18,157 bases of DNA, taken from positions 1-18,157 of the forward strand of contig JAUQXD010001133.1 of NCBI GenBank assembly GCA_030834835.1. The letters run 5' to 3'. The notes beneath the pieces are model-generated. The model did not search any database. It was not told the DNA's origin and saw only the letters and a list, made by a program, of their open reading frames with translations. Every line of letters begins with the position of its first letter. Position 1 is the first letter of the stretch. Positions 3,001 through 18,157 of this stretch are shown here, one piece after another. The position numbers were made by a program, and so were the translations under genes. This stretch comes from Thermoflexales bacterium. Lineage in GTDB: Bacteria; Chloroflexota; Anaerolineae; Fen-1058.

Positions 3001-5012
3001 TGGCAGTCGGCGGCGGCCCGGATGCTTATGGTTATACGTGGATCACTTCTACGTATAACTATATCCCGGCGAATGACGGCACGGCCCTGGCCCTGGGCGA
3101 CGACGAGGAAGCAAACATCACGCTGCCGTTCTCGTTCTCGTTCTACGGCGCGAGCTCGACCAACCTGCGCATCGGCAACAACGGCGCAGTCCTGTTCAAT
3201 GCAACCGCCGGCGACGTGAGCACGGCCAATACGGCCATGAGCGCAGCCCCCAACTACTTCATCGCGCCGTTCTGGGATGACATTGACAGCGACACCGGCA
3301 GTGTCTACTGGAAGACGGTCGGGGTATCGCCCAACCGCAAGGTCGTGATCGAGTGGTACAACCGCCCGCACTACAGCAATGTGGGCAGCGGGACGTTTGA
3401 ACTGGTGTTGTTCGAGAACGGCAATATCCAGTATCAGTATCTGGACACCGACTTTGGCAACGCACTGTACAACTTCGGGGCGGGCGCCACATCCGGTATC
3501 CGTGGCACTGATACGGCCAACAGCCTGCAGTACTCGTTCGACCAGGCCAAACTGACCAACGGTCTGTCGCTGTGCTTCGTCAGGCCGGGCAACGCCCCGT
3601 GCGACGCAGTGGATGTGCCGTGGCTGACCGTGACGCCGACCAGCACGGTCGGTTTGACGGGCACGCCGCCCAGCAGCCAACTGCTGACGGTGGGCTTCGA
3701 TTCAGCCTCGCTGCCGCTGCCGGGCACCTACTCGGCTTTCGTGTTGCTCTCGCACAATGCGCCGCAGCCGGCCGTTAGCATCCCCGTCACCTTCAACGTG
3801 ACGGCGCCGGCGACCTACGGCCAGATCAATGGCGTGGTCAACGGCCTTGCCGTCTGCGACGCCCCAGGCGCGCCGCTGCAAGGCGCGGATGTCGCGATTA
3901 CGGGTGGCACAGTGGCGACGGCAACCACCGCGGCCAACGGCCAGTACAACTACTACCTGTTGGGCGGCAGCGCCTACACGCTGACGGTGTCCAAAGCGGG
4001 CTATGTGTCGCAATCAACCGTTGTGACCGTGACCGCGCAGCAGACGACGACGACCAACTTCAACCTGCGGCTGCTCGCACCGTGCCAGTCACTGTCGACC
4101 TCGGCCTTCACGGTCACACAGCAGACGAACAAGGTGACGACGCAAACGCTGACCGTGCAGAACACGGGCACGACGCCGCTGGTCTGGAACATCCAGGAAC
4201 TGGCCCCGGCGCTATTAGCCGCACCCGACGCGGAAATCGACAGCCGGGTGTCGCGCTATATCCCGGTCGCCAACATCTCGCTGGCCGCTCCGTTGGTTAA
4301 CGCCATTCAGGATGGCAGCTTCGAGGCGACCAACGGCACGACCTACGCCAACCCGTACTGGGGCCAGGATTCTACGACCTTCGGCACCATCCTGTGCAAC
4401 GCGGCGTGCGCCTCATCGGGTACTGTAACGGCGCGTACGGGTCTGTTCTTCGCCTGGTTTGGTGGCAACGCCACGGGTGACGTTGGCTATATCCAGCAGA
4501 CGACAGTCCTGACGCCCGGCGTATCCTCACTAAGCTTCTACTTGCGGATGACGGGCAATTCGGCTGCCGGCAACTTCATGAAGGTCTCGATCGACGGGAC
4601 GCCAGTTTTCACGGCGACCACCGCCGTTCAGGGCAGCTATGCCGATTACACGCTCGTGACGGTGGATGTGACCTCGTTCGCCAACGGCGCGTCGCGCGTG
4701 TTGCGTTTCGACTCCACGACAACCGATGGCGGTAACTTCTTCGTGGACGATGTGGCGCTGGACATCACAGGCCCGGCCTGCGAGCCGAACTCGCTGCCGT
4801 GGGTGACGGCCGTACCGGTCAGCGGCACGGTCGCAGCCGGTGGCAGCGCCAACGTCAGCCTGGTCTTCAACTCGACTGCGCTGGCGGGTGGTACGTACTC
4901 GGGCACGCTGTGCTATGCCAGCAACGACTCGATCGCGCCGAGTGTGCAGATTCCGGTGACACTGAAAGTGATCACCGAATACAAGCTGTATCTGCCCGTC
5001 GTGCGCCGCTAA
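3..5012 (+). CDS. Large secreted multidomain protein, 5' end cut by window edge
   Basis: The reading frame is open from the first base, so this is the C-terminal part of a longer gene; the GTG at 9 is not a credible start. Residues are counted from 9. Residues 1-270 look like beta-rich repeat sequence (a WGDYSSM stretch, as in large secreted BNR/propeller-type proteins). Then come three carboxypeptidase-regulatory-like (CarbD_reg) domains (about 273-360, 359-445, 447-528), an alpha/beta glutamine amidotransferase-like domain (583-788, starting NILVVDRT), a BACON-like sandwich (795-858), a fourth CarbD_reg (865-955), a nidogen-like domain (1009-1190), another BACON-like unit (1202-1266), a fifth CarbD_reg (1271-1357), a DUF642/CBM-like jelly roll starting QDGSFEATNG (1431-1590), a last BACON-like unit, and the tail YKLYLPVVRR. 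No catalytic motif is visible; an enzyme head may lie upstream of the window. It is probably exported and surface-associated. Domain names are by eye. Confidence 0.85.
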   Translation, partial: FGVNADFGGQLPSDYDGTTPPPAGTPNYFAEVDDDGVAPALGPDAMRIWKFHVDWTTPANSTFGVNGTPNYTLTVSPFAQICPTTRSCVPQPGTTSRLDAIGDRVMFRGAYRNVNGHETLLLNHSVDAGSSRSGIRWYEVRDLGTAPVIYQQSTYAPADTEHRWMGSIAMDHVGNIALGYSVASGTVYPSVRYTGRLAGDPLGVMAQGESNIISGTGSQTDSAARWGDYSSMTLDPVDDCTFWYTQEYYAVTSARDWQTRIASFRFPNCSIGPQGALVGKVTNAANSNPIVGARIDAASSPTMTYVAYANGSGDYTHILPAGVPYTVTGSAYGYLPATFTNVSVVSGTTTTQNISLTVAPTYVISGYVKDSATNDPLMATVAVIGTPFNPPFASVDTDPATGYYSMTLAGGQSYTLTASALLHTAAAQGVTPVANTNVNFNLVATTQNGGFIGYVRNYYTNAPVPNATVTVATGGNPSDQTDANGYFEIFNLVPGTYTATATANLYSPVSISNIQVLSSNIAMRTFLLPTSQLNYDPAALNKTLTFGSVATDTAGLVISNTGLGALNFSLQEQKGGFAPLRPTVGNILVVDRTSASAARAITTALTSLGYTYDYVSNTVFEGYSLATLQQYQAVMYAGNTGTSDTSASNVKLQAYLDAGGKLLIADNDLGYFNDGFALYDTYLQSVWVGDDALSNLTGSVVGEGIMSGLSGDVSGDPFPDYYTARSAENTPIFKYSTTGAGNNQPAGSMIVRNGYKAVYLAFDYYYLGGSAIGEQIETDVMQRVLTFLGGGGPVDTVPWFNQTPLTGTLSTGASQDIQIGWDASVADIAQPGTYTATLRIDNNDPLAQNTALPVALTVLPAANQRFLTGVVSTTGVCDVNVAPLNGATVVIQGSAGFGITVTTNAAGQYGYWLDAGQSPYTATVSYPDHPTTAVSVDVTGGLTTTQNFTLRLQKPCIATNPNSLSATAQLGSSAPNQTIAVTSSGALPLDFNVFEVPSSLAVGGGPDAYGYTWITSTYNYIPANDGTALALGDDEEANITLPFSFSFYGASSTNLRIGNNGAVLFNATAGDVSTANTAMSAAPNYFIAPFWDDIDSDTGSVYWKTVGVSPNRKVVIEWYNRPHYSNVGSGTFELVLFENGNIQYQYLDTDFGNALYNFGAGATSGIRGTDTANSLQYSFDQAKLTNGLSLCFVRPGNAPCDAVDVPWLTVTPTSTVGLTGTPPSSQLLTVGFDSASLPLPGTYSAFVLLSHNAPQPAVSIPVTFNVTAPATYGQINGVVNGLAVCDAPGAPLQGADVAITGGTVATATTAANGQYNYYLLGGSAYTLTVSKAGYVSQSTVVTVTAQQTTTTNFNLRLLAPCQSLSTSAFTVTQQTNKVTTQTLTVQNTGTTPLVWNIQELAPALLAAPDAEIDSRVSRYIPVANISLAAPLVNAIQDGSFEATNGTTYANPYWGQDSTTFGTILCNAACASSGTVTARTGLFFAWFGGNATGDVGYIQQTTVLTPGVSSLSFYLRMTGNSAAGNFMKVSIDGTPVFTATTAVQGSYADYTLVTVDVTSFANGASRVLRFDSTTTDGGNFFVDDVALDITGPACEPNSLPWVTAVPVSGTVAAGGSANVSLVFNSTALAGGTYSGTLCYASNDSIAPSVQIPVTLKVITEYKLYLPVVRR

Positions 5013-5027
5013 GTATCCCGACCGACT

Positions 5028-5057
5028 GTTCCGGCGCAGTTCTCGCTGCGCCGGAAC
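5028..5057 (+). terminator. Hairpin after the first gene
   Basis: There is a perfect 12-bp inverted repeat (5028-5039 with 5046-5057) and a 6-nt loop, starting 16 nt after the stop codon. No T-run follows, so it may stop transcription by another route or protect the mRNA 3' end. Confidence 0.5.
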
Positions 5058-5073
5058 ACGCTTGACCTTGAAA

Positions 5074-5111
5074 CTGCCGCCCGCGCGTAGGTCTTTTCGT
5101 GCGGGCGGCAG
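5074..5111. repeat. Second hairpin in the same intergenic gap
   Basis: Arms 5074-5087 and 5098-5111 pair over 14 bp with one G.U pair. The 10-nt loop ends in TTTT. It follows the hairpin at 5028-5057 directly, so it could be a second terminator or part of the leader of the subtilase gene. Confidence 0.5.
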
Positions 5112-5118
5112 TAATATA

Positions 5119-5136
5119 GGGCCGCAGCTGCGGCCC
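5119..5136. repeat. Perfect 18-bp palindrome in subtilase leader
   Basis: GGGCCGCAGCTGCGGCCC is its own reverse complement. It lies 34 bp upstream of the subtilase start codon, just before the AAAGGA ribosome site. It could be an operator for a dimeric regulator or a leader hairpin; the sequence does not decide which. Confidence 0.45.
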
Positions 5137-5169
5137 GTACCTTCACTTCACCAGAAAGGAAGTCTCACG

Positions 5170-8070
5170 ATGATTCACTCACGTATTCGCGCCCTGATTC
5201 TCCCGGGAATTATCCTGCTGTTATTGATCGCGACCACCGCGATCGGTGCGGCGCAGTTCTCGCAGCCGCGCACCGTGCTTGACAAGATTCAACCGTGGAT
5301 CATCGATCAGACCGCCGACGGCGCACAGGCCGAGTTCCTCGTTGTGCTGGCTGATCAGGCTGACCTGAGCGCTGCCGATAAACTGCCCACCAAATTGGAA
5401 AAAGGCCGGTATGTTTATAAGACGTTGTATGACACAGCGCAGGCTACGCAAGGTTCGATTCTGAAGTGGTTGCAAGAGCGCGGCGTTGAACATCGCGCCT
5501 ACTACATCGTCAACTTGATCTGGGTGAAGGGCGATCGGGACACCGCGCTTGCGCTCGCGGGCCGATCGGATGTGGCGCGGCTCGAAGGCAATCCCCACGT
5601 CCGATTGATTCCGGAGCCGACCACGGCCAGCGATCCAGCCGCGCCCAATGTGCCCAATGGCATCGAGACCGGTATCAACAACACCAAAGCGCCGCAAGTC
5701 TGGGCGATGGGCTACACCGGCCAGGGGATTGTGGTCGGCGGGCAGGACACCGGCATTCAGTGGGATCATCCGGCGTTGAAGAATCATTATCGCGGCTGGA
5801 ACACGGCGACGTTGACCGTGACCCATGACTACAACTGGCACGATTCAATTCATGAGACCGGTAGTTCCTGCGGCGCAAACTCGCCCATGCCGTGCGACGA
5901 CAACAGTCACGGCACGCACACGATGGGCACAGCGGTCGGTGACGATGGCGGGTCCAATCAGATCGGTATGGCGCCTGGCGCAAAGTTCATCGGCTGTCGC
6001 AATATGAATGCCGGCGTCGGTACACCGGCCACGTATCTCGAATGCTTCGAATTCTTCCTCGCGCCGTATCCGGTGGCGGGCACGCCCGCGCAGGGCGACC
6101 CTGATCTGTCGCCGGACGTGACCAATAACAGTTGGGGCTGCCCCTTTGGCGCGCCGCCCGCCGGCGAAGGCTGTGTGCCCGATTCGTTGCTGCTGGCCCT
6201 GCAAGCGCAGCGCGCGGCCGGCATCATGACTGTTGTCTCGGCGGGCAACGACGGCCCCAGTTGCTCCACTGCGGATGATCCGCCGTCGTATCACGACGAG
6301 GCGTACACGGTGGGCGCGTTGGGCACGGGCACCGATACGATCGCTTCGTTCAGCAGTCGCGGCCCGGTGGATTCCGATGGCAGCGGCCGCCGCAAGCCGG
6401 ACATTGCCGCGCCGGGTACCAGTGTCCGGTCAAGTGTGCCGGGCGGCGGCTACAGTTCTGCCTTTAGCGGCACTTCGATGGCGAGTCCGCATGTAGCGGG
6501 CGCAGTGGCGCTGCTGTGGTCGGCGCGTCCGCAATTGAGAAACAGCCTCGATCTGACCGAGCAGATGCTTAACAACTCGGCATTCCACATCAACAGTGCG
6601 GCGTGCGATCCGGTCGGGACGACGTGGCCCAACAACACCTACGGCTATGGGCGATTGGACGTCAAAGCGGCCGTCGATCTGGCCCCGGCGAACAACAGTG
6701 CGCTGATCGGCACCGTGACCAACGCCCTCAGCGCCGCGCCGATTGCGAACGTGGCGATTACGGCCACGGCCAGCGTGACGCTGACGGGCAGTACGACGAC
6801 CAGCGCCAGCGGCGCATACACGCTGCCTTTGATCAACGGCACGTACACCGTCGATGCGGCCGCCTACGGTTATCAACCCGCGCAGATCACGGGCGTAAGT
6901 TTGATTTCCGGCACGACGACCACGTTGAATATCACGCTGACGCCGACGCTGTTTTACACAATCTCTGGTGTGGTGAAGGACGCACTGACGGGCGCGCCGT
7001 TGACGGCGACGATTGCGATTACGGGCTATCCGGGCAGTCCCGTCACCACGGATGTCGACGGGCAGTATGCTGTGTCGCTGGCGGCAGGCGTGAGCTACAC
7101 CCTGCGAGCCGCCGCGAATGTGCCGAGCTACACGGCCGTCACGCGCTCGTTGGGAGCGCTGACTGCCGATCGGGTGGAGAACTTCGATCTAGCGCCTGAT
7201 CTGGTGGCCTGCATTGCGCCCGGCTACACCTTATTCGGCGTAAGCGAATCGTTCAGCAGCGGCGTAACACCCACCAACTGGATCGTCAGCAGCACCGTGC
7301 CGGCAGTGAGTTGGCGCTTCAACAATCCCGGCGGCAAGACCAACTTGACCGGCGGCGCGGGCGGCATGGCGATTGGCGACAGCGACTTCTTCGGTCCCGG
7401 CCAGAATCTGAATAGCGAACTGCGCACACCACCGATGAATCTTTCGACGTTGACGACGGTGACTTTGCGCTTCAAGACCGACTTCAACTACTATTCGGGC
7501 GGTTCGGCGGAAGTGGCCGAGGTGGACGTGAGTGTGAACGGCGGCAGCAGCTGGACGAACGTGTGGCACAAGGTCGAGAGTTATCGCGGCCCGGTCGAAT
7601 TGGATTTGTCGGCGCAAGCCGCCGGCCAATCCGATGTGCGTGTGCGCTTCCACTACTACAACGCGATCTTTGACGGCTGGTGGCAAGTCGATGATGTACA
7701 GTTGGGTTACTGTGCGCCGCCGTCGTTTAGCCGCCCGAACCTGACACCGGCGACGGCCGCGCAAAGCGGCACACCTGGCACGAGCGTGGTGTTCGATCTC
7801 GTGATGGAGAATCTGAGCAGCGTGACGAATACCTACACGCTGACAGCGCAAGCCGATTGGGCGACCGCGCTTTCGACGAGCCTCATCACCATGACGCCGC
7901 ACCTCACCTCGACGTTGACGGTGAGTGTGACGGTGCCCATCACCACTGAAGGGCGCAGCGACATCGCGACGATCTCCATGCAGGGCAGCAATGGCACGGC
8001 GACTAGCACGCTGACGACGACGGCGCACTGGCCGTATGCGATCTATTTGCCGCTAGTCGTGCAGGACTAG
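5170..8070 (+). CDS. Secreted subtilisin-family protease (S8A, bacillopeptidase F-like)
   Basis: This is a 966-residue secreted endoprotease. The start ATG at 5170 is chosen because AAAGGA (5155-5160) precedes it and a signal peptide follows (hydrophobic LILPGIILLLLIATTAIGAA, likely cut near residue 27); an in-frame TTG at 5062 has neither. An I9-like propeptide covers about 38-155. The catalytic domain (about 165-500) has all the expected residues: Asp193 in GGQDTGIQWDHP, His247 in DDNSHGTH, oxyanion Asn360 in SAGND and Ser436 in SGTSMASPH. The NNSWG and CDDNSHGTHTMGT stretches resemble bacillopeptidase F. Then follow two CarbD_reg domains (508-595, 598-676), a jelly-roll 'choice-of-anchor J/cleaved adhesin'-like domain bounded by Cys681 and Cys848, an NEW3-like sandwich (855-950) and the tail YAIYLPLVVQD. 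It is flanked by genes for other secreted peptidases with the same C-terminal module. Family assignment is firm; the roles of the accessory domains are inferred. Confidence 0.95.
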   Translation: MIHSRIRALILPGIILLLLIATTAIGAAQFSQPRTVLDKIQPWIIDQTADGAQAEFLVVLADQADLSAADKLPTKLEKGRYVYKTLYDTAQATQGSILKWLQERGVEHRAYYIVNLIWVKGDRDTALALAGRSDVARLEGNPHVRLIPEPTTASDPAAPNVPNGIETGINNTKAPQVWAMGYTGQGIVVGGQDTGIQWDHPALKNHYRGWNTATLTVTHDYNWHDSIHETGSSCGANSPMPCDDNSHGTHTMGTAVGDDGGSNQIGMAPGAKFIGCRNMNAGVGTPATYLECFEFFLAPYPVAGTPAQGDPDLSPDVTNNSWGCPFGAPPAGEGCVPDSLLLALQAQRAAGIMTVVSAGNDGPSCSTADDPPSYHDEAYTVGALGTGTDTIASFSSRGPVDSDGSGRRKPDIAAPGTSVRSSVPGGGYSSAFSGTSMASPHVAGAVALLWSARPQLRNSLDLTEQMLNNSAFHINSAACDPVGTTWPNNTYGYGRLDVKAAVDLAPANNSALIGTVTNALSAAPIANVAITATASVTLTGSTTTSASGAYTLPLINGTYTVDAAAYGYQPAQITGVSLISGTTTTLNITLTPTLFYTISGVVKDALTGAPLTATIAITGYPGSPVTTDVDGQYAVSLAAGVSYTLRAAANVPSYTAVTRSLGALTADRVENFDLAPDLVACIAPGYTLFGVSESFSSGVTPTNWIVSSTVPAVSWRFNNPGGKTNLTGGAGGMAIGDSDFFGPGQNLNSELRTPPMNLSTLTTVTLRFKTDFNYYSGGSAEVAEVDVSVNGGSSWTNVWHKVESYRGPVELDLSAQAAGQSDVRVRFHYYNAIFDGWWQVDDVQLGYCAPPSFSRPNLTPATAAQSGTPGTSVVFDLVMENLSSVTNTYTLTAQADWATALSTSLITMTPHLTSTLTVSVTVPITTEGRSDIATISMQGSNGTATSTLTTTAHWPYAIYLPLVVQD

Positions 8071-8155: not shown

Positions 8156-10897
8156 ATGAATCGACGCAAGTGGCTGCTCATCGTGCTCGTCCTCGCCAGC
8201 GTGATCGGCGTGGCGGGTTCGGTCCAGGCTCAGAGTACACCGATCGCGCAGGCATCAGCAGGCATCACCATCGCGCGCGTCTACTATGCCGATCGCACGC
8301 AGCTGGTCCAACTGACCGGGCGCTACGACGTGTGGGAAGTCCGATCGGCTGAGGGGTACGCGGTCGTCGCGTTATCGCAAGCCGAATACACCGCGCTCAG
8401 CGCGCAGGGTTATCGGCTCTCGATCGATCTGGCGAAAACGATCGAGGCCAACCTGCCGCGCGTGAGCCTGCCAGGACAGATCAACGGCATCCCCGGCTAT
8501 GCGTGCTATCGCACCGTGGAAGAGACGTACACCACGGCGCAAAACATCGTGGCCGCGCACCCTGATCTGGCGGAATGGATCGACATCGGCGATAGCTGGG
8601 ATAAGATCACCCTGGGCGGCGCGGCCGGTTACGATCTGATGGTGCTGAAACTGACCAATCAGAATCGACCCGGCCCCAAACCCGTCTACTTCGGTATGTC
8701 GTCGGTGCACGCCCGCGAATATGCACCTGCGGAGTTGAACACGCGCCTGGCCGAATACCTGATTAACAACTATGGCACCAATCCCGACGTGACGTGGCTG
8801 TTGGACTACACCGAAGTGCATCTGCTGTTGCAGGCCAATCCAGACGGGCGCAAGCAGGCGGAAGCGGGTTACTCGTGGCGCAAGAACACCAACGGTGATT
8901 ACTGCGGGGTCACCAGTACCAGTCGCGGTGCGGACCTCAATCGCAATTGGCCGTTCATGTGGAACTCGTGCGCGGGCTGCTCCAGCGGCGTTCAGTGCGA
9001 TCTGACCTATCGCGGTCCAACGGCCGCGTCTGAGCCGGAAACGCAGGCCACGGTCAACTACGTCCGATCGATCTTCACCGATTACCGACCCGTCGACGAT
9101 TTGACCACACCGGTGCCTGTCACGGCTACGGGCATGTTCTTCGATTTGCACAGTTACAGCGAACTGGTGTTGTGGCCGTGGGGGTTCACATCCAATACCG
9201 CGCCGAATGCCACGGCGCTGCAAACGCTGGGCCGCAAACTGGCCTACTTCAACAACTACGATCCGGGGCAGTCGGTGGGGCTGTATCCGACCGATGGTAC
9301 CACCGACGATACGACCTATGGTGAGCTGGGCATTCCCGCTTACACCATCGAGATGGGGACGAGCTTCTTTCAGGATTGTGCGTCCTTTGAATCTACGATC
9401 TATCCGACGAATCTGAATGCGCTGGTGTACGCCCTCAAAGCGACGCACCGCCCGTATCAACGCCCGGCCGGGCCGGACGTGCTGTCATTGGCGGCGACAC
9501 CGGCCTCAGCGGCGGCGGGCGCGCTGATCACACTGAATGCCAGCGCCAACGACACGCGCTATTCCAACGTGGGCGGCGCCGAGCCGACGCAGGCCATCGC
9601 CGCGGCGCGCTATTCGATCGATGCACCATCATGGTTGGGCGCGACGACGTATGCCATGTCGGCGAATGATGGATCGTACAACGCGACCATCGAGGCGATC
9701 ACGGTGCAGATCAACACGGCCGGCTTGACGCCCGGCCGTCACACGATCTTCGTCGAGGCGCAGGATGCCGCCGGCAACTGGGGCGTGCCTACCGCCGTGT
9801 TCGTCACGATCACGGCAGACAGCGCGCTCGATGGCACGGTGCGCGATGCGGCGACGACGCTACCCATCGCCGACGCGCTGATTCAAGTGAGCGCCAGTCC
9901 CACGCAGACGGGCAGCCTGAACACGAACGTGGCCGGGCAATACCTGCTGGCCCTGACCAGCGGCACATACACGCTGACAGCTTCGGCCTACGGTTATGCA
10001 CCGCAGACCATCGGCGGCATCACACTGACGACCGGCCTGACCACGACGCGCGACATCAGCCTGACGGCAGTGGCAACTTACACGATCACCGGTAGCGTGC
10101 GCGATGGGCTGACGAATCTGCCCTTGAGCGCGACACTCACCATCAGCGGCTATCCACACAATCCGATCGTGACCAACCCGATCGGCCAATACGCGATCAC
10201 GCTGGCCGAGGGCGGGCCGTACACGTTGACGATGAGCGCGCCGGGGTACGTGACGCAGCAACGTCCGATCGGGCCGCTGACGACCGATCGAGTGGAGGAC
10301 TTCGCGTTGAACGTCGATGTGGAGGCGTGCAACGCTCCCGGCTATGAGTGGTTTGGCGTGCGTGAATCGTTCGCGACGACGATCACGCCGACGAATTGGC
10401 TCGTGAGCAGCACGTTGAGCAGCGCGGCCTGGCGTTTCAATAACCCGGGTAACAGGACCAACCTCACGGGCGGCGCGGGTGGTTTCGCCATCGCGGACAG
10501 TGACTACGCGGGGGCGGGCGTCAATATGAACACGGAACTGCGCTCGCCGCTGATGAACCTCACAACGGTGACGACGCCGACGTTGACGTTTAAGACCGAC
10601 TTCAATTACTTCGACGGCGGCTCCAGTGAAGTGGCCGACGTGGATGTGAGCGTCGACGATGGCGCAACGTGGAACAACATCTGGCAACGAACGGCGAGTT
10701 ATCGCGGCCCGCAGACGGTCACGATCGATCTGGCGCAGGCCGCCGGGCAGTCGCAAGTCCGCGTGCGCTTCCACTACTACAACGCCGTGTGGGATGCGTG
10801 GTGGCAAGTGGACGATGTGAGCCTGGGAATGTGCGCGCCCACCGTGATGCCGACGTGGCGATATGTGTATCTGCCGCTGGCGTTGAGCGGAGACTAA
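8156..10897 (+). CDS. Secreted zinc carboxypeptidase (M14, carboxypeptidase T-like)
   Basis: This is a 913-residue secreted metallocarboxypeptidase predicted to remove C-terminal residues from peptides. The ATG has GAGGT 5 nt upstream (8146-8150) and opens a signal peptide (RRK, then a hydrophobic stretch, likely cut near VQA-Q, residue 26). A short propeptide-like region runs to about 100. The M14 domain (about 105-430) has zinc ligands His185 and Glu188 (HARE) and His332 (DLHSYS), substrate-binding Arg242 and Asn262-Arg263 (DLNRNW), the NPDG turn, the TYRGP...SEPET signature, and catalytic Glu399 (YTIEMG). After it come an Ig-like domain (441-556), two CarbD_reg domains (556-642, 641-722), a jelly roll bounded by Cys725 and Cys893, and the tail YVYLPLALSGD. 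The C-terminal half is closely related to that of the next gene, which starts 83 nt later with no clear terminator between, so the two may be co-transcribed. The catalytic set is complete, so activity is likely. Confidence 0.95.
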   Translation: MNRRKWLLIVLVLASVIGVAGSVQAQSTPIAQASAGITIARVYYADRTQLVQLTGRYDVWEVRSAEGYAVVALSQAEYTALSAQGYRLSIDLAKTIEANLPRVSLPGQINGIPGYACYRTVEETYTTAQNIVAAHPDLAEWIDIGDSWDKITLGGAAGYDLMVLKLTNQNRPGPKPVYFGMSSVHAREYAPAELNTRLAEYLINNYGTNPDVTWLLDYTEVHLLLQANPDGRKQAEAGYSWRKNTNGDYCGVTSTSRGADLNRNWPFMWNSCAGCSSGVQCDLTYRGPTAASEPETQATVNYVRSIFTDYRPVDDLTTPVPVTATGMFFDLHSYSELVLWPWGFTSNTAPNATALQTLGRKLAYFNNYDPGQSVGLYPTDGTTDDTTYGELGIPAYTIEMGTSFFQDCASFESTIYPTNLNALVYALKATHRPYQRPAGPDVLSLAATPASAAAGALITLNASANDTRYSNVGGAEPTQAIAAARYSIDAPSWLGATTYAMSANDGSYNATIEAITVQINTAGLTPGRHTIFVEAQDAAGNWGVPTAVFVTITADSALDGTVRDAATTLPIADALIQVSASPTQTGSLNTNVAGQYLLALTSGTYTLTASAYGYAPQTIGGITLTTGLTTTRDISLTAVATYTITGSVRDGLTNLPLSATLTISGYPHNPIVTNPIGQYAITLAEGGPYTLTMSAPGYVTQQRPIGPLTTDRVEDFALNVDVEACNAPGYEWFGVRESFATTITPTNWLVSSTLSSAAWRFNNPGNRTNLTGGAGGFAIADSDYAGAGVNMNTELRSPLMNLTTVTTPTLTFKTDFNYFDGGSSEVADVDVSVDDGATWNNIWQRTASYRGPQTVTIDLAQAAGQSQVRVRFHYYNAVWDAWWQVDDVSLGMCAPTVMPTWRYVYLPLALSGD
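10328..10834 (+). repeat. Jelly-roll module, copy in M14 gene
   Basis: This encodes the Cys-to-Cys jelly-roll domain of the carboxypeptidase. It is closely similar at DNA level to 12493-12987 in the M28 gene and more distantly to 7210-7713 in the subtilase gene. The stretch 10736-10806 matches 12889-12959 at 70 of 71 bases by hand alignment. Confidence 0.8.
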
Positions 10898-10980
10898 GCG
10901 CCTCACCCCCACGCGCTTGCGCGGCGGCCGATGACGCACAGGCAATTTGAAAATCTGCGGGGGCAGACCGAGGTCAAGTG

Positions 10981-13047
10981 ATGAAGCGATCCTTAAGCGC
11001 AGCGGTTCTGTTGGCGGTGGCGTGGTGGCTGGCCTTGACGCTGGGCGTTCCGGCGATGGCTCGCGCGGTCACGGCTCCTGATCCATTCTATCAATCCGTC
11101 GTCGCCGCGATGGTCGGTCGAGTGTCACAGGCCACGGTGTACAACTACGATGCGCAGCTCAGCGGCGAGGTGGCGGTGCCGATCGGTGGGCAGCCATATA
11201 CCCTCACCACGCGCCACACCCGATCGGGCGTGCCGATTGAAAAGGCTACGCAGCTGGTGTACGAACGCCTGCAGCAAGAGGGCCTGAGCGTAAGTTATCA
11301 CACCTGGAGCGCGTGCTCGACTTCGGGGCGGAATGTGATCGGCACGCTGCCGGGGCTGGTGAAGCCGCAGGAGATCGTGTTAATCACGGCGCACCTCGAC
11401 GACATGCCGTCCACCGGCGTGGCCCCTGGCGCAGACGACAATGCCAGCGGCTCGGTGGGCGTCATGCTGGCCGCCGAGATTCTGAGCGATTATCGCTTTG
11501 AGCGCACGCTGCGCTTTGTCTATTTCACCGGCGAAGAGCAGGGCCTGTGCGGCAGCAATGCCTATTCCGCCGAGCGGCTGACCGCCGGGGACAACATCGT
11601 GGCCGTGTATAACATGGACATGATCGCCTGGGACGCGGTGGGCGATCCGACGCTGCGACTGCATATTCGCACCAGCGGCAACCCCGGTTATGCCGCCGAT
11701 CTGGCAATAGCGGGCGTGTTCACCAATGTCGTACAGTCGTATGGCCTGAGCAGTGCGCTAATGCCCATCGTCGACGCCGACGGCGAAAGCGCCAGCGATC
11801 ACGCGTCTTTCTGGCAGCGCGGCTACCCGGCCGTTCTGGCGATTGAGGACGATGACGACGACTTCAACGACTACTATCACACCGCCAACGATCGCCTGGC
11901 AAACCTGAATCTGCCGTATTTTACGGCTTTTGTGAAAGCCTCGGTGGGCACGGCCGCGCACCTGGCGCGCCCCTTTGGGACTGGCGCGGCGCAGGGCATG
12001 ATCACGTCCGGCGGAGCGCCAATTGGTCAGGCGCAGATCGTGGCCACGCTTGATGTGACGCGCGGCGGTCAGACCCAATCGACCGCCAACGGCGAGTATG
12101 TGCTGTATTTGAGTGAAGGGTCATACACCTTCACGGTTACGGCCTACGGCTTCGCGCCGCAGCTGATCTATCCGGTCACGATTCAACCGAATGTTACGAC
12201 CACACAAAACTTCACGCTGACGCCGGTACCCACTCACACGGTATCAGGCTCGATCACCGATGGATTAACCGGGCAGCCGCTCAGCGCGACAATCGACATT
12301 GACGGGTATCCCTACGGCCCGATCGCGACGGAGCCGCTCAACGGCCACTACGCCAGCGCGCTGGCGACAGGCGTGCCTTACACTTTCCACGTCAGGGCGA
12401 ATGTGCCCGGCTACCTGGTCAGCGATCGGATCATCGGGTTGCTGAGTGCCGATCGAGTGGAGGACTTTGTGCTGACAGCCGATCAGGCGGCATGCAGCGC
12501 GCCCGGTTACGAATGGATCGGTGTGCATGAATTGTTCGCGACGACGATCACGCCAACGAACTGGCTGGTGAGTGGCGTGGGGTGGCGCTTCAATAATCCG
12601 GGCGGGCGGCAAAATCTCACGGGTGGCACAGGCAGTTTTGCCATCGCGGATAGCGACGATGCTGGCCCGGGTGTCAACATGAACACGGAACTGCGCTCGC
12701 CGCAGATGAACCTCTCGACCGTCACGACACCGGCGCTGACGTTTAGGACCGACTTTAATTACTTCGACGGCGGCTCCAGCGAAGTGGCGGATGTGGATGT
12801 GAGCGTGGACGACGGCTCAACGTGGAGCAACGTCTGGCGCAAGACGGCGAGTTATCGCGGCCCACAGACCGTCTCGATCAATCTGCCACAGGCCGCCGGG
12901 CAGTCGCAAGTCCGTGTGCGCTTCCACTACTACAACGCCGTGTGGGATGCGTGGTGGCAGGTGGATGATGTGAGCCTGGGGGAGTGCCGCTTACCGCAGC
13001 CGGCGCCGCACTGGTCAGTGTATTTGCCGGTGGTAGTGGGACAATAA
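10981..13047 (+). CDS. Secreted M28-family aminopeptidase
   Basis: This is a 688-residue secreted zinc peptidase, predicted to act as an aminopeptidase. The ATG at 10981 is preferred over the GTG directly before it because GAGGT (10970-10974) is then 6 nt away. A signal peptide follows (KRSLSAAVLLAVAWWLALTL, probable cut near ARA, about residue 30). The M28 domain has the co-catalytic metal set: His138 and Asp140 (AHLDD), Asp152 (GADDNASG), Glu185/Glu186 (TGEEQG), Asp213 (NMDM) and His300 (YYHTANDR), with SDHASF before the last. Two CarbD_reg domains (337-420, 420-503), a jelly roll between Cys505 and Cys669, and the tail WSVYLPVVVGQ complete it. Unlike the M14 neighbour it has no Ig-like spacer. 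Together with the S8 and M14 enzymes it would complete extracellular protein breakdown. Family assignment is firm; substrate preference is not visible. Confidence 0.95.
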   Translation: MKRSLSAAVLLAVAWWLALTLGVPAMARAVTAPDPFYQSVVAAMVGRVSQATVYNYDAQLSGEVAVPIGGQPYTLTTRHTRSGVPIEKATQLVYERLQQEGLSVSYHTWSACSTSGRNVIGTLPGLVKPQEIVLITAHLDDMPSTGVAPGADDNASGSVGVMLAAEILSDYRFERTLRFVYFTGEEQGLCGSNAYSAERLTAGDNIVAVYNMDMIAWDAVGDPTLRLHIRTSGNPGYAADLAIAGVFTNVVQSYGLSSALMPIVDADGESASDHASFWQRGYPAVLAIEDDDDDFNDYYHTANDRLANLNLPYFTAFVKASVGTAAHLARPFGTGAAQGMITSGGAPIGQAQIVATLDVTRGGQTQSTANGEYVLYLSEGSYTFTVTAYGFAPQLIYPVTIQPNVTTTQNFTLTPVPTHTVSGSITDGLTGQPLSATIDIDGYPYGPIATEPLNGHYASALATGVPYTFHVRANVPGYLVSDRIIGLLSADRVEDFVLTADQAACSAPGYEWIGVHELFATTITPTNWLVSGVGWRFNNPGGRQNLTGGTGSFAIADSDDAGPGVNMNTELRSPQMNLSTVTTPALTFRTDFNYFDGGSSEVADVDVSVDDGSTWSNVWRKTASYRGPQTVSINLPQAAGQSQVRVRFHYYNAVWDAWWQVDDVSLGECRLPQPAPHWSVYLPVVVGQ
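12493..12987 (+). repeat. Jelly-roll module, copy in M28 gene
   Basis: This is the second copy of the module at 10328-10834, four residues shorter near its N-terminal part (the SSTLSSA stretch of the M14 copy is reduced to SG). All three copies in the window keep RFHYYNA, WWQVDDV and the two flanking cysteines, which probably form a disulphide. Confidence 0.8.
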
Positions 13048-13164: not shown

Positions 13165-13212
13165 AACCACCGCGCCCCGATCGATTTCTCAATCGATCGG
13201 GGCGCGGTGGTT
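13165..13212. terminator. Bidirectional terminator hairpin between convergent genes
   Basis: A perfect 21-bp inverted repeat (13165-13185 with 13192-13212) has a 6-nt loop, TTCTCA. It lies 117 nt after the M28 gene, and its right arm touches the stop codon of the convergent regulator gene. Very GC-rich outer arms and an ATCGAT inner part make it extremely stable. There is no good T-run on either side, but the position fits a two-way terminator. Confidence 0.75.
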
Positions 13213-16200
13213 CATGGTGTGCTGTGTGAAGTGACATGACCATATGCTGGGCTGCGATTCAGCCAGGGCGGATCGAGGTGCGGCTGCTCGCGTGTCCAGA
13301 TCTCTTCACAAATCTCGTCCAGCTGGCGCAACTGTCCACGCTGTTGAGCGGCGGCAGCGACGTGCGGTTCCAGTTCCGGTTCAATCTGCTGGCACAGCTG
13401 CCCGGCGCGGTCTCTGAACTCTCGCTCAGTGACGGGATGATTCATCACAAACGCCAGCAATTCAAGGGCCTGTTCGGCTTGACCCTGGCGATGCCAGAAG
13501 GCGGCGATGCCGACCAGCACGCTCAAGGTGAGCGGCGTGGCCTGCGTTTCCAGCGCGGCGACCAGAGCCTGCAAATAGTACGCGATGGCTTCGGACGGCT
13601 GACTGAGCGCACTGGTCATCTCGCCCAGACTATTCAACGTGTAGACACTGCCAACCAGATCGCCGATTTCTTTCCGGATAGTCAGGCTCCATTGCAGGAG
13701 CCACTTGGCGTCCTGGTTGTTACCGGCGGCCAGCGCGACATCGGCCAGGTTGGTCAGTACCATCGCCGCGCCGCGGCGATCGTCGATTTTGGTCTGGATG
13801 GTCAGGCTTTCTTCGTACAGATATTTGGCTCGCTCGTAGTTGCGGCGCAGGAAGGCGATCCCGCCCAGGTTGTTGAGCACCAGCGACTGCCCGATGTGAT
13901 CGCCGATTTCGCGCTGAATGGTCAAACTGTTGCGATAGAGTTCTTCGGCCGAGTCATAGTCCCCGCGGATGGATGCCACGATGCCCAGGCTGTTGAGCGT
14001 GCGCGCCAGCAGATAACCGTCGCCGCTGCCCGTGCAAATCTCGACGCTTTCACTCAACAGATGATAGGCCAGCTCGTATTCACCCGTCATCCAGCATAGA
14101 TCGCCGAGATAGGTGCGTGCAAAGGCGCTCTCGCGGCGCGCGCCGAGGCGCGTGTGCAGGTCAAGACTCTGTTGATAGAGCGGCCGGGCCTGATCTAAAC
14201 GGCCCAGCCGGTGAAGCAACCGGGCCTGTCGGGCAAGGAGGCTGCCCAGCAGTCGTTCGTCGATCGCGTGACCGGCGCGGGCGGAATCGGCCAGTCGTGC
14301 GGCGGCTGCCGCGAACGAGTCGGCGCCCTCCTGAACCAGGCCGCGCAGATCGTAGAAGAAAAACAGGCTTTCAACGTACTGCTCGATCAAGTTCCAGTAA
14401 GCTTGATCGATCGACCATTGCCACGCCGCCCGGATATTGTCGATCTCGTCGCTAATGTCCGCCAGGATTTCGGGTTGTCGTCCGGCTCGCCAGTACTTCT
14501 CGCGCTGACTCAGAAAATCAGCATAGTACCGGCAGAAGTTTTCGCGGACGGCCTGTTCGCGTGCCGGATTCTCTTCCAACTTCTTGATCAGATACTGTCG
14601 CAGCAGCTCGTGCAATTCGAAGCGGCCAGTCGCCGTTCGCCGCAAAAACGATTTGTCCACCAGCGTTGACAACAATTCGATCGAAGCGCCGGCCACCTGT
14701 TCGGCGATCTCGCGCTGAAAACCGCGGCGAAATATCGCCAGGCCCAGCACCGCCCCTCGTTCGTCTTCGGCCAGCAAATTCCAGGAGTGGTCAAACACAG
14801 TGCGCAGGTTGCGATGGCGCGTCGGCACATTGTGCTCGTTCGTCACCAGGAAGCCGGTATCCCTTCGAACTTCGCGCGCGATCTCCTTCAACGACAGCGT
14901 GCGCACCCAGGCCGCCGCCAGTTCAATGGCCAGCGGCATCCCCTCCACCAGCTGGCAGATGCGGGCGATGTGCGGCAGATCGGCATCTGAGAAAACCAGC
15001 GTGATGTCATGCCGCCGCGCACAGCTGATAAACAGCCTGAGCGCGCTGTAGTGCGCGCTCCCATTTTGCCGGGCAGTTGCCGGGTAATCAAGCCCGCAGA
15101 TCTCCAGCAGCCACTCGCCCTGCACGTTGAGCCGCTCGCGCGAGGTCACGAGCATCTTCACGCGCGGCGCATTCTGCAAGATCTCAACCAGCAGCGGCGC
15201 GCCGTCGGTCAGGTGCTCAAAGTTGTCCAGCACCAGCAGCAGCTCTTTTTCACGGAGAAAGCTAATGAGCTGAGTTCTGGGTTCGTTCGCCCCATAAAAG
15301 GTAAACTGAAGCGCGTCCGCGAGCGCCGGCACCAGATGCTCAGGCGATCGCAACGGCGCCAGGGCGACAAAGTACACGCCGTTTCGAAACGCCGCCATGT
15401 GTTGCGCGGCGGACTGAATGGCCAATCGGGTTTTGCCGATGCCGCCTGGCCCGACCAGTGTTATCAGGCGACCGGCGGGCAGCGCCAGCAGCTGCTCGAT
15501 CTGGGTCAGTTCGCCCTCGCGCCCGATAAACGGTGTGAGCTGCACCGGCAAATTATGCCGGCCGGAGGCCGACGCAGCGAGCGGCGCCGGCAGATAGCGA
15601 TCCGGCGGTGCTGGCAGACGATTGGACTTGATGTCCTCATACAGCCCGGTTGTTGCTTCTTCGGGCGGCAGGCCCATTTCTTTATCCAGAATGTCGCAAC
15701 AGGCGCGATACTGGCCCAGGGCATGCGTCACCTGCCCATTCCACACGTAGAGCTTCATGAGCACACGCTGCGCCTCTTCGTTGAAGACGTCCAGCATCAG
15801 CCAGCGTCGCGCATAAGTGATCGCCGCTTCAAACTCGCGCTGTGCGCTATGGCCGTCGACGAGGCGCGCGAGTGCGCCAGATACCAGGCGGCGGAAGTCC
15901 TCGGCCTGGAACATCTGCCATTCTTCAAAGGCAGGGCTGTCCGGCAGACTGAAGCCCGTCAGGAAGTCGCCACGCGAGAGATTGACCGCCTCGCTCAATG
16001 GCGTCAGGCAGCCCAGGCAAACATCTGTTGACGGATGACCGTGCGCCCTGCAGTCGGCAAGGTAGCGCTGCAAGTCGTCGATATCGGTTCGAAGATCAGC
16101 GTCCGGCATGAGGCCGATCAGATCACGATCGACCTCCAGCCATTCTTCGCCAATGTCCTTTTTCAATGCAGCCAGTGTGCGCCGCAGAGAGGCGCGGGCG

Positions 16201-16376
16201 GAGGTCTGGCTGAAATCCGGCCAGAACAGGGCGGCGAGTTCGTCGCGGCTATGTCGGCGGCGTGCAATCGCCAGATAGACGAGGAGCGCAATTGACTTGC
16301 GGCGCTCAAGCGTCACCGGCAGACCGTCACGCTCAATTCGGGGCGGGCCGAGAAGCAACAGTCGCAAGGCAGACAT
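13212..16376 (-). CDS. SARP/AfsR-like transcriptional activator (wHTH-BTAD, NB-ARC ATPase, TPR)
   Basis: A 1054-residue cytoplasmic regulator. The N-terminus (about 1-95, from MSALRLLLLG) is an OmpR-type winged helix, followed by a bacterial transcriptional activation domain (about 95-260). That includes His112, His114, Cys120 and Cys123 in an HxH-x5-CxxC pattern. An NB-ARC/AAA-type ATPase follows, with Walker A GPGGIGKT at 309-316 and Walker B LLLVLDN with Asp384. The C-terminal third (about 710-1000) is tetratricopeptide repeats (for example ALNSLG/VLNNLG-type helices and YEESLTIQ). By family, nucleotide binding and a TPR-sensed ligand control DNA binding. The ATG at 16376 is chosen over the in-frame GTG at 16442: the promoter at 16459-16487 would start RNA near 16452, leaving GTG almost leaderless, and family similarity begins at MSALRLL. 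It diverges from the S41 peptidase operon, its likeliest target; the secreted peptidase genes are alternative targets. Confidence 0.9.
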   Translation of the reverse strand: MSALRLLLLGPPRIERDGLPVTLERRKSIALLVYLAIARRRHSRDELAALFWPDFSQTSARASLRRTLAALKKDIGEEWLEVDRDLIGLMPDADLRTDIDDLQRYLADCRAHGHPSTDVCLGCLTPLSEAVNLSRGDFLTGFSLPDSPAFEEWQMFQAEDFRRLVSGALARLVDGHSAQREFEAAITYARRWLMLDVFNEEAQRVLMKLYVWNGQVTHALGQYRACCDILDKEMGLPPEEATTGLYEDIKSNRLPAPPDRYLPAPLAASASGRHNLPVQLTPFIGREGELTQIEQLLALPAGRLITLVGPGGIGKTRLAIQSAAQHMAAFRNGVYFVALAPLRSPEHLVPALADALQFTFYGANEPRTQLISFLREKELLLVLDNFEHLTDGAPLLVEILQNAPRVKMLVTSRERLNVQGEWLLEICGLDYPATARQNGSAHYSALRLFISCARRHDITLVFSDADLPHIARICQLVEGMPLAIELAAAWVRTLSLKEIAREVRRDTGFLVTNEHNVPTRHRNLRTVFDHSWNLLAEDERGAVLGLAIFRRGFQREIAEQVAGASIELLSTLVDKSFLRRTATGRFELHELLRQYLIKKLEENPAREQAVRENFCRYYADFLSQREKYWRAGRQPEILADISDEIDNIRAAWQWSIDQAYWNLIEQYVESLFFFYDLRGLVQEGADSFAAAAARLADSARAGHAIDERLLGSLLARQARLLHRLGRLDQARPLYQQSLDLHTRLGARRESAFARTYLGDLCWMTGEYELAYHLLSESVEICTGSGDGYLLARTLNSLGIVASIRGDYDSAEELYRNSLTIQREIGDHIGQSLVLNNLGGIAFLRRNYERAKYLYEESLTIQTKIDDRRGAAMVLTNLADVALAAGNNQDAKWLLQWSLTIRKEIGDLVGSVYTLNSLGEMTSALSQPSEAIAYYLQALVAALETQATPLTLSVLVGIAAFWHRQGQAEQALELLAFVMNHPVTEREFRDRAGQLCQQIEPELEPHVAAAAQQRGQLRQLDEICEEIWTREQPHLDPPWLNRSPAYGHVTSHSTP

Positions 16377-16458
16377 GACCAACAGGGCCTCAGAACGGAG
16401 TGTTCGACAAGAATGTGTCCGGGCGTGGGCGTGGCTTAGCACGTGTCAGTCGCGAGGC

Positions 16459-16668: not shown

Positions 16669-17805
16669 GTGTCCTGGTCTAAACGTCTTCCGTGGCTTGT
16701 GTTGATGGTGGCTGCATTTGCGGGCGGGTGGCTGGCCCGTACGGTTACGCAGCCGGCGGCCGATCCCGCCCTGACCCTGATTGGCCGGGCCGGTCAGATT
16801 ATCAGCGAGGAATACTACGGCGAGGTGCCCGCTCCGCGCCAGCTGGCCTATGCGGCCATCCGGGGCATGCTGGCGGAGCTGGGCGACAAGTATGCGACGT
16901 TCTTCGAACCCACTGCGGCCGCGCGCGAGGGCCTGGGAGCCAATGGTAATGACGCCGTGATCGGCCTGCGCGGTGAAGTACGCGATGGACTATTCGTCGT
17001 GACGGATGTCCTGCCCGATGGGCCAGCGGCTCGAGCCGGGCTGCAAATGGGTGACGTCATCCAGACCATTGATGGCTGGACTATTTCCCGCGGCTCCTCC
17101 TCGTCCGAAATCCATGCCATGATTCGCGGCGCGGTCGGATCAACTGCGCACTTGACGGTTCGGCGTGGCGACACTGTGCTGTCGCTGGAGGCGGAGCGTG
17201 AACCCTTCCAGGAAGTCACGACTCAGCGCTTTGGCGAGATCGCCTATCTTCGTTTCGATCGATTCACGAGCCAGACGCCGCAGCAGATCGACGCGTCACT
17301 GACGCAACTCTTGACGAACACCACCACCGGCCTCATTCTGGATTTGCGCTACAACGGCGGCGGACTGATGAATTCAGCCCGCGAGATTCTCGATCTCTTT
17401 CTGGATAAGGGTGTCGCGTTCTATGCCCGCACCCGGCAGGGCGACTTGCTTCCCTACCTCACCCGGGCAGACGGTGACATCGCCGAAACAATCCCGCTCG
17501 TCGTGTTGATCAGCCCGCATACTTATTCTGCGCCGGAAACGGTGGCGGCGGCGATTGCCGATCGCGGTCGAGGCGAATTGATCGGCGAACGAACGCACGG
17601 CAAAGGCTCGATCAATACGACTGCCAATCTGGGTGATGGCTCGGCCATCCGCATTACGGTCGCGCAGTGGCTGTCGCCCGTTCAACAACGGTCATTTGAA
17701 GGCATTGGCGTGGCGCCCGACATCGCCGTCACGAATAGCCCCGACGACGGCCAGGACACGGTCTTGCTCTATGCCATCGACTATCTGCGCGACATGCAAC
17801 CCTAA
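16669..17805 (+). CDS. Membrane-anchored S41 C-terminal processing peptidase (CtpA/Prc-like)
   Basis: This is a 378-residue protease of the tail-specific S41 family, which cleaves proteins near their C-termini outside the cytoplasmic membrane. Start GTG 16669 is chosen for the AGGAG 8 nt upstream. A short basic N-terminus and one hydrophobic segment (about residues 7-23, LPWLVLMVAAFAGGWLA) suggest a membrane anchor. A PDZ domain (about 100-180, starting VIGLRGEVRDGLFVV) is followed by the protease domain. Ser287 (YSAPE) and Lys312 (THGKGS) are 25 residues apart, the same distance as Ser430 and Lys455 of E. coli Prc, so the dyad is intact. The usual GSASASE and DLRNNPGG motifs are changed to HTYSAPE and DLRYNGGG. 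The stop lies 25 nt before the NWGG-repeat gene, so the two form an operon. The repeat protein is the obvious candidate substrate or partner, but this is inference from proximity. Confidence 0.92.
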   Translation: MSWSKRLPWLVLMVAAFAGGWLARTVTQPAADPALTLIGRAGQIISEEYYGEVPAPRQLAYAAIRGMLAELGDKYATFFEPTAAAREGLGANGNDAVIGLRGEVRDGLFVVTDVLPDGPAARAGLQMGDVIQTIDGWTISRGSSSSEIHAMIRGAVGSTAHLTVRRGDTVLSLEAEREPFQEVTTQRFGEIAYLRFDRFTSQTPQQIDASLTQLLTNTTTGLILDLRYNGGGLMNSAREILDLFLDKGVAFYARTRQGDLLPYLTRADGDIAETIPLVVLISPHTYSAPETVAAAIADRGRGELIGERTHGKGSINTTANLGDGSAIRITVAQWLSPVQQRSFEGIGVAPDIAVTNSPDDGQDTVLLYAIDYLRDMQP

Positions 17806-17818
17806 ACTGACACTGTTC

Positions 17819-17825
17819 AAGGAGG
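17819..17825 (+). promoter_or_regulatory. Perfect Shine-Dalgarno site AAGGAGG
   Basis: AAGGAGG sits 5 nt before the ATG at 17831. It is the strongest ribosome site in the window (the other genes have AAAGGA, GAGGT or AGGAG) and fixes the start of the small gene, suggesting high translation. Confidence 0.85.
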
Positions 17826-17830
17826 AAGTC

Positions 17831-18067
17831 ATGAAAAACCTGTACTATGTTCGAGAGGAAAATTTGCGGAAGGTTCTGGTCGGCATTGCGATCGTGATCG
17901 TTGTGATCAGCGCGTTTTTCGCCGCGGCCGGGCGCGATCCGGTTGCGAATGCCAGCAACGTCAACTGGGGTGGCAGCGTTAACTGGGGCGGCAGCGTTAA
18001 CTGGGGCGGTTCAGTCAACTGGGGCGGCTCTGTTAACTGGGGTGGCAGCGTCAACTGGGGCGGATAA
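17831..18067 (+). CDS. 78-residue secreted or membrane protein with six NWGG repeats
   Basis: I do not recognise a family. Residues 1-14 are polar and charged (MKNLYYVREENLRK), 15-33 are strongly hydrophobic (VLVGIAIVIVVISAFFAAA), then GRDPVANAS leads into six VNWGG units (residues 44-78) joined by Ser. An AxA-type signal peptidase site (ANA, 39-41) would release a 37-residue peptide built only from Ser, Asn, Val, Trp and Gly, with no charge. If uncleaved, the repeats would sit outside the cell on a single membrane anchor. The gene has a perfect AAGGAGG site, follows the S41 peptidase gene by 25 nt and is followed by a strong hairpin. The peptide could be a structural or adhesive surface peptide, a signal, a peptide toxin, or a modified (RiPP) precursor; no modifying enzyme is in view. 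That it is a real gene is well supported; the function is unknown. Confidence 0.85.
   Translation: MKNLYYVREENLRKVLVGIAIVIVVISAFFAAAGRDPVANASNVNWGGSVNWGGSVNWGGSVNWGGSVNWGGSVNWGG
17960..18064 (+). repeat. Six tandem 18-nt units encoding VNWGGS
   Basis: Five full 18-nt units and a last 15-nt unit encode identical residues. Units differ only at synonymous positions (GTC/GTT, GGT/GGC/GGA, AGC/TCA/TCT), and no two full units are identical in DNA. Length variation between strains would be expected. Confidence 0.95.
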
Positions 18068-18107
18068 TTCGCGCTGTCCAATCTCTTCCTGACCGATAAC
18101 GATCAAT

Positions 18108-18139
18108 GCGGCGGCGATGTGATTTCACGTCGCCGCTGC
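18108..18139 (+). terminator. Hairpin after the NWGG-repeat gene
   Basis: A 15-bp stem (18108-18122 with 18125-18139, two G.U pairs) begins 41 nt after the stop codon. As drawn it has a 2-nt loop; in practice one or two pairs would open. No T-run follows, so it could end transcription or protect the 3' end. The remaining bases to the window end show nothing further. Confidence 0.55.
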
Positions 18140-18157
18140 CATGTTGCACCAGTGCCA

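Follow-up and report, generated by a model that had tools for sequence, protein, structure and literature searches.

The described proteins closest to the peptidase considered here are CtpA, CtpB and Prc/Tsp of family S41. Like these, it combines S41 and PDZ domains with a catalytic serine and lysine; unlike them, it has asparagine in the place of the triad glutamine (valine in the only other genome of the genus compared), a TYSAPE motif around the serine, a score below the cut-off of the subfamily model TIGR00225, and a peptide gene next door. In CtpB, the triad glutamine orients the lysine, and the Q338E substitution abolished activity (PMC3808539, in the part of that article consulted).

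The peptide is best compared with a group of AprX-like S8 subtilases that end in SVQWG tails: these carry a Trp-Gly motif as well, and their N-terminal SVNWGG is the very repeat unit of the peptide, which differs from them in having no protease domain and in being encoded elsewhere in the genome. Cyanobactin-type multi-core RiPP precursors, which are cut by the PatA/PatG proteases, resemble the peptide in having a leader followed by identical repeated units, with S8 proteases in the same genome. Here, however, the repeats also form enzyme tails, and a scan of the proteins encoded upstream in the window (whose contig stops 90 nt past the peptide gene) and of those beside the related pair showed no RiPP modifying enzyme. 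YSIRK/GXXS signal peptides are linked to the LPXTG anchors of Gram-positive surface proteins; as far as the excerpted sources go, they too put a short conserved motif into the n-region of proteins with a C-terminal surface signal. Any likeness to the subtilases would be in manner of working only: the motif and the phylum are different, and the subtilases have no sortase-type LPXTG. Class IIa (pediocin-like) bacteriocins are defined by a YGNGV box and a cysteine pair. Some of them contain SVNWG (PMC7409045, excerpted text), once, behind the YGNGV-type box and cysteine; the window peptide has neither, and the likeness is taken as coincidence.

The S41 peptidase, the subtilase and the low-complexity repeat are each of a known kind; the pair and the paired subtilase motifs were not found in print in an open-access search. 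That search, by motif letters and topic, turned up no description of a bacterial repeat or tail made of these motifs (subscription papers lie mostly outside its scope).

The two-gene locus

The window, that is the whole stretch of 18,157 nt that was analysed, is the entire contig C743 of a fragmented Thermoflexales genome (G000). The contig stops 90 nt past the peptide gene, so the downstream neighbour is unreadable in this genome. An earlier note on this DNA described an S41 gene followed after 25 nt by the gene for a 78-aa peptide with six VNWGG units, and the sequence bears out this layout with its coordinates. The peptidase gene (16669..17805, + strand) has a GTG start at 16669 and a stop codon at 17803-17805, and encodes 378 aa: an N-terminal hydrophobic stretch; a PDZ domain at residues 97-174 (16957..17190, +; PF13180, PDZ_2, 2e-12, 47.7 bits against a gathering score of 27); and the S41 catalytic domain at residues 191-354 (17239..17730, +; PF03572, 4.9e-42, 143.7 bits against a gathering score of 24). 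On the same strand lie the codons of the catalytic Ser287 (17527..17529) and Lys312 (17602..17604), and of Asn316 (17614..17616) at the place of the triad glutamine.

The 25-nt gap contains a strong Shine-Dalgarno sequence, AAGGAGGA (17819..17826, +; read by eye), and the peptide gene follows (17831..18067, +). Residues 1-41 form a leader (17831..17953, +) with a charged start, a hydrophobic helix at 3-33 in the predicted model, and a possible signal peptidase site, ANA/SN. Beyond it, Gly, Trp, Ser and Ala make up nearly the whole chain, Val, Asn or Tyr being few, and there is no cysteine, no YGNGV and no PF00082 domain; the SV[NQ]WG motif is present in the form SVNWGG. The model gives the leader helix alone, with low confidence in the repeat region. 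The six VNWGG units (17960..18064, +) make up a tandem array with a period of 18 nt (6.1 copies), the only tandem VNWGG array in this genome. As protein the units are identical; their DNA varies by synonymous codons only, serine for example being written AGC, TCA and TCT. As just 11 of the 54 single-base changes possible per unit are synonymous, such a pattern is more than chance would give.

Folding places a strong 14-bp hairpin without a T run after the peptide gene (18108..18139, +; z −4.2 for the whole 90-nt stretch), possibly the end of the transcript, though a repeat finder reported no inverted repeats in 17800-18157. A consensus scan called neither a promoter on the + strand nor a terminator after the peptide gene, and Rfam gave no match. 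The divergent neighbour upstream, a SARP-like regulator (BTAD, ATPase and TPR; 13212..16442, −), is left out of the unit because it is absent beside the second pair, described below.

Conservation of the pair

Within the genus the comparison covers a single further genome, G001, in which the best match to the window S41 is followed, after a gap of 12 nt, by the gene for a 97-aa protein made of a signal peptide and repeats. Its repeats are of the type W[SA]G[GA] with a period of seven, and the units are not identical to each other; the C-termini also differ, NWGG in the window peptide versus MNYAH in this one. Ribosome sites precede both peptide genes. A hairpin whose foot is rich in A and T follows the G001 peptide gene, where the terminator scan called nothing. 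The contig concerned (C421) shares the S41 match and the peptide DNA with JAGOBP010000104.1, from a Thermoflexales MAG.

The pair is thus present in both congeners, or two of five family genomes; it was not found in the other three. Its surroundings are not the same: upstream lies the SARP-like regulator in the window versus a long, probably secreted protein in G001, and downstream G001 has an oxidoreductase, whose 80% identical orthologue in G000 is on another contig, among other genes and with a response regulator-like gene after it. As the flanks differ, the pair has stayed together while its surroundings changed, and has been kept as a unit; in this sense the pairing noted earlier is real.

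Its reach is narrower than was first proposed. A small Trp-repeat ORF follows the S41 gene in both congeners, but none was seen in 28 further S41 loci and 18 further regions (some overlap), which cover part of the class S41 matches. In a draw of 400 phylum genomes, with at most four candidates scored per genome and G001 not drawn, no S41 except that of the window reached E 1e-66; the notion of a general Chloroflexota system does not hold up against this result.

The window peptide (P0001) has few relatives. Among 5.8 billion proteins, with P0001 itself unlisted, it had one weak match, P0002 (E 0.84), a 110-aa metagenome protein, probably secreted, with repeated SVNWG motifs. Phages gave no match to P0001, and plasmids none to P0002; a codon pattern for two tandem SVNWGG-type units had 0 matches in genome_contigs, a collection from which the window's own genome is possibly left out. 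P0001 matches in two phylum genomes (G446 and G603) were discarded as Arg-rich simple repeats at contig ends. P0001 also matched a short SVAWGA array from another family (L130; G039:C23, 80758-80850), which lies in a possibly coding open frame of 119 aa.

Close relatives of the G001 peptide include two metagenome proteins, P0006 and P0007; P0006 is without four of the units of P0004. A degenerate stand-alone relative, with a signal peptide, AWSGGFG and then a stop, lies at about 1568-1717 (−) of G002:C193 (L100), a contig with no S41 match.

A divergent S41 peptidase

A tandem of two ordinary S41 genes is common among members of the class and often precedes an smpB-like gene (by eye). In G000 such a tandem lies on contig C233, which makes the window S41 the third copy. 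A tree of 70 S41s, built by a quick method and rooted at its midpoint, with one outlier row that is very long, unites the window and G001 proteins in one clade with SH-aLRT 99 and a long stem. Their identity is 55.3% in the alignment (56% by search), versus 89.1% and 81.7% for the ordinary copies. Read from these sequences, the window S41 is a fast-evolving, genus-restricted paralogue. Its best solved relatives are carboxyl-terminal proteases, for example 7rpq and CtpB 4c2c, and with the prc subfamily NCBIfam model TIGR00225 it scores 183.5 bits, below the cut-off of 218.6.

The active site has changed as well. The earlier note spoke of an intact Ser287/Lys312 dyad, and both residues are indeed present and kept in G001; the third member of the triad, however, is not glutamine. 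The serine is found in all 70 S41s aligned, in the window within TYSAPE where xASA[SA]E is usual, and a proline two residues after it occurs in the window and G001 proteins only. Among the other 68, 61 have lysine with glutamine four residues on, six have threonine with leucine, and one has asparagine with valine. At the glutamine position, then, the window has Asn and G001 has Val, where each of the 61 other class S41s with lysine has Gln. With this residue lost, the enzyme may be altered, weak or dead.

The six proteins with threonine and leucine form a separate S41 group, from six class genomes (L121, L068, L113, L123, L115 and L116), with the motif GTGT[VI]L: the serine is kept, threonine replaces the catalytic lysine and leucine the triad glutamine. 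By these residues they are probably inactive or changed proteins.

Trp-Gly repeats as tails of subtilases

Where else do such repeats occur? A codon pattern for two NWGG units matched five of 298 class genomes, namely the window's own and four of one other family (f23). There the repeat, of eight VNWG units, is the tail of a subtilase-like protein in three of the four genomes; in the fourth it is truncated by the end of the contig. With the G001 peptide as query, 40 of 199 class genomes gave a match at E<=0.01, many of these weak and of low complexity; the strong ones that were read are SWSGGY-type arrays, which in G002, G004, G010 and G077 lie close to the C-terminal end of a long protein. 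G001 itself has such an array, truncated where its contig stops, and G003 has one at a contig edge only. The tailed protein of G004 is S8 by Pfam (3.5e-50), and a search found the S8 domain to be common to the tailed proteins of G001, G002 and G004; those of f23, G010 and G077 were called subtilases by eye.

In G000, residues 1-90 of the G001 subtilase, used as query, found no match; its catalytic domain led to contig C1143 (L141), where two subtilases lie in tandem (429-1979, −, and 2112-5243, −) and end in SVQWG arrays plus SDYWG. Pfam confirmed S8 for one of them (P0008).

The earlier note held that its proposal would be refuted if the repeat gene lay mostly away from S41 genes. The answer is divided. 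As a module, the Trp-Gly repeat is mostly the C-terminal tail of S8 subtilases, away from S41 genes, and a repeat specific to S41 is not supported; as a stand-alone gene it adjoins S41 in two genomes, with the one degenerate relative in G002:C193 having no S41 beside it.

Each congener's free peptide resembles the tail of its own genome more than that of the other. For the G000 peptide, z is 5.1 and 5.6 with the two tails of G000 but 2.7 with that of G001; for the G001 peptide it is 13.8 with its own tail and −1.7 and −1.6 with those of G000. The match is not exclusive: the VNWGG tail of f23, from another family, fits the G000 peptide better (z 7.2) than its own genome's tails do, and for the G001 peptide the tail from G004 (z 12.7) is almost as good a fit as its own.

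A search with the G000 tail region returned 51 proteins including itself, all 51 with PF00082; two are named Anaerolineae bacterium and one Chloroflexi. Together with the second G000 copy, 52 subtilases were compared, and all of them entered the counts. Of these, 48 terminate exactly in SDYWGP, a figure partly built in because the search used the tail. The N-terminus was not part of the query, and near it 38 of the 52 have [SA]VNW[GC]G, in 36 cases exactly the SVNWGG of the window repeat. The first residue of this motif stands at position 11 in 33 of the 38. Of the 14 proteins that lack it, ten seem truncated or atypical at this end; P0028, P0029, P0044 and P0059 have a normal start and no motif. 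Over 37 of the 38 motif-bearing starts, aligned, the six motif columns carry 4.1-4.3 bits each. Six of the nine columns before them carry 1.1-1.8 bits, and the remaining ones are Asn at −9 (2.6), Ile at −3 (3.2) and Arg at −2 (3.6). The 23 proteins of alignment A2 are 56-83% identical to the first; an AlphaFold model of P0031 from 23 close rows was set aside (pLDDT 38.1). No NCBIfam model reached its cut-off with the three subtilases tested.

In G000 the codon pattern for SVNWGG has five copies in the window peptide, one at the start of a C1143 subtilase and another in a short adjoining frame; a further one, on C1194, reads CVNWGG. The other C1143 subtilase has SVNWCG. G001 gave none. Over 31 genomes there were 16 matches, half of them in G000, and the reversed control gave four.

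Both P0010-P0059 and the L141 proteins are AprX-like subtilases, 38 of the 52 with SVNWGG, in the loose form, in the n-region of the signal peptide. From their sequences, the N-terminal SVNWGG and the SVQWG array ending in SDYWGP are possibly an undescribed paired signal of the two termini. The short frame, MSDSFKRIRPSVNWGGRTTGQSST, around position 275 (−) of C1143, downstream of the tandem subtilases, resembles the remnant start of a third.

Perspectives on function

The pair itself, its conservation, its close layout, the motif common to it and the subtilases, and the changed active site can all be read from the DNA and its translations; together with the motif on other secreted proteases of the cell, the pair hints at an undescribed surface-protein module.

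The best explanation of the locus sees in it a free-standing mimic of the subtilase tails together with a dedicated, altered tail protease, a reading to which we give a probability of about 0.4. The pair would be a two-gene operon read as one transcript and restricted, within the genomes tested, to a single genus of Anaerolineae; it would make an exported peptide of almost nothing but Trp-Gly repeats and a divergent, surface-anchored S41. The peptide would be the free form of a motif that the same cells put on AprX-like subtilases, in G000 as SVNWGG in the n-region and SVQWG arrays at the C-terminus. Most likely it would work outside the cell, occupying whatever holds the subtilase tails, or co-assembling with that partner; the S41 would bind and trim tail-type C-termini, those of the peptide, of the subtilases or of both, and so tune how much of these proteins stays on the surface. 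A separate, fast-evolving S41 clade is what would be expected if the enzyme follows a fast-changing substrate. Also in favour are the retention of the pair amid different neighbours, the short gaps with ribosome sites and the hairpins after both peptide genes, the SVQWG arrays that end two G000 subtilases, the recurrence of the repeat unit near the N-terminus of their group, and the better match of each free peptide to the tail of its own genome.

Several findings count against this perspective: the pair is known from two genomes only; the f23 tail, though from another family, fits the G000 peptide better (z 7.2) than the G000 tails do; the two peptides differ in their C-termini; the triad glutamine is lost; the G001 units are not identical; and no terminator was called after either peptide. 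Moreover, the tails are not dependent on this S41, since tailed subtilases live in genomes that lack it. An SVNWGG in the n-region is expected on the cytoplasmic side and the peptide repeats outside, so these two copies of the motif may not meet. A bolder extension supposes a surface-protein code of Anaerolineae, with SVNWGG in the n-region and (SVQWG)n-SDYWGP at the C-terminus, to which the S41 and the SVNWGG array would be an accessory unit, tail protease plus soluble mimic, co-evolving with the subtilase tails; we hold this to be doubtful. If true, Chloroflexota would have their own protein-sorting signal, one linked to proteases and to a minimal repeat peptide in free form; there would be a natural S41 that has kept Ser and Lys but not the triad Gln, next to a gene for its candidate substrate; and how tail-specific proteases find tails would become directly testable.

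A second perspective takes the peptide for a structural or adhesive low-complexity polymer of the surface, with the S41 as its quality-control protease. The composition after the leader, the varying number of units (P0006 versus P0004) and the low model confidence of the repeat would all suit such a polymer; the strict conservation of the VNWGG units in the window does not, and the place of the motif at the precise ends of subtilases suggests recognition rather than bulk. This makes it an unlikely account.

A third, close to that of the earlier note, supposes a multi-copy precursor that the S41, perhaps with a subtilase, cuts into short SVNWGG-type peptides, which are released and may serve as a signal. 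In its favour, the six units are identical and constrained at the protein level, a protease gene adjoins them, and the subtilases are weakly similar to PatA/PatG (E 3e-14, far below the cut-off). However, the G001 units are not identical, the same motif belongs mostly to large proteases, genes for a modifying enzyme, a transporter or a receptor were not seen next to either pair, and the triad glutamine is lost; processing by an active S41 also fits poorly with two peptides that have no common C-terminus. On balance, a precursor seems rather improbable.

Much the same may be said of the view that there is no functional tie, and that the genes are neighbours transcribed together by chance. It would account for a pair seen in two genomes only, for the degenerate stand-alone relative in G002:C193 with no adjoining S41, and for tailed subtilases that live without this enzyme; but the pair stays together where its neighbours change, and both peptides are of the same odd kind though their repeats differ, which leaves mere adjacency with poor odds. 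Least probable of all is an S41 that is no longer a protease, its PDZ domain holding or escorting Trp-Gly tails with the peptide as regulator: the replaced glutamine, the changed serine motif in both genomes, the fast evolution and the Thr/Leu group, which indicates that loss of activity happens in this family, speak for it, and the retention of Ser and Lys in both genomes despite 55% identity speaks the other way.

Neighbouring genes

A regulatory link was considered and set aside: neither a SARP nor a cyclase-AAA gene adjoins the G001 pair, and the G001 genome has 16 matches to the window SARP (best 38% identity), so that adjacency by chance is likely. SARP or cyclase-AAA genes adjoin tailed subtilases in G003, G004, G010, G002 and G077 (L102-L106); such genes are numerous in these genomes. 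In f23 (L055, L056, L057 and L058), the gene after that of the VNWGG-tailed subtilase encodes a GGDEF/HD protein of about 910 aa, a call made by Pfam on the G026 copy and by similar ORF and position for the other copies.

The first part of the window encodes four successive large proteins (3-5012, 5062-8070, 8156-10897 and 10978-13047, all +), three of them with S8, M14 and M28 peptidase domains. All four end in a YLP[VL] motif (YLPVVRR, YLPLVVQD, YLPLALSGD and YLPVVVGQ), and the protein upstream of the G001 pair ends in YLPLVRR; from these endings, the motif is perhaps a C-terminal surface tag.
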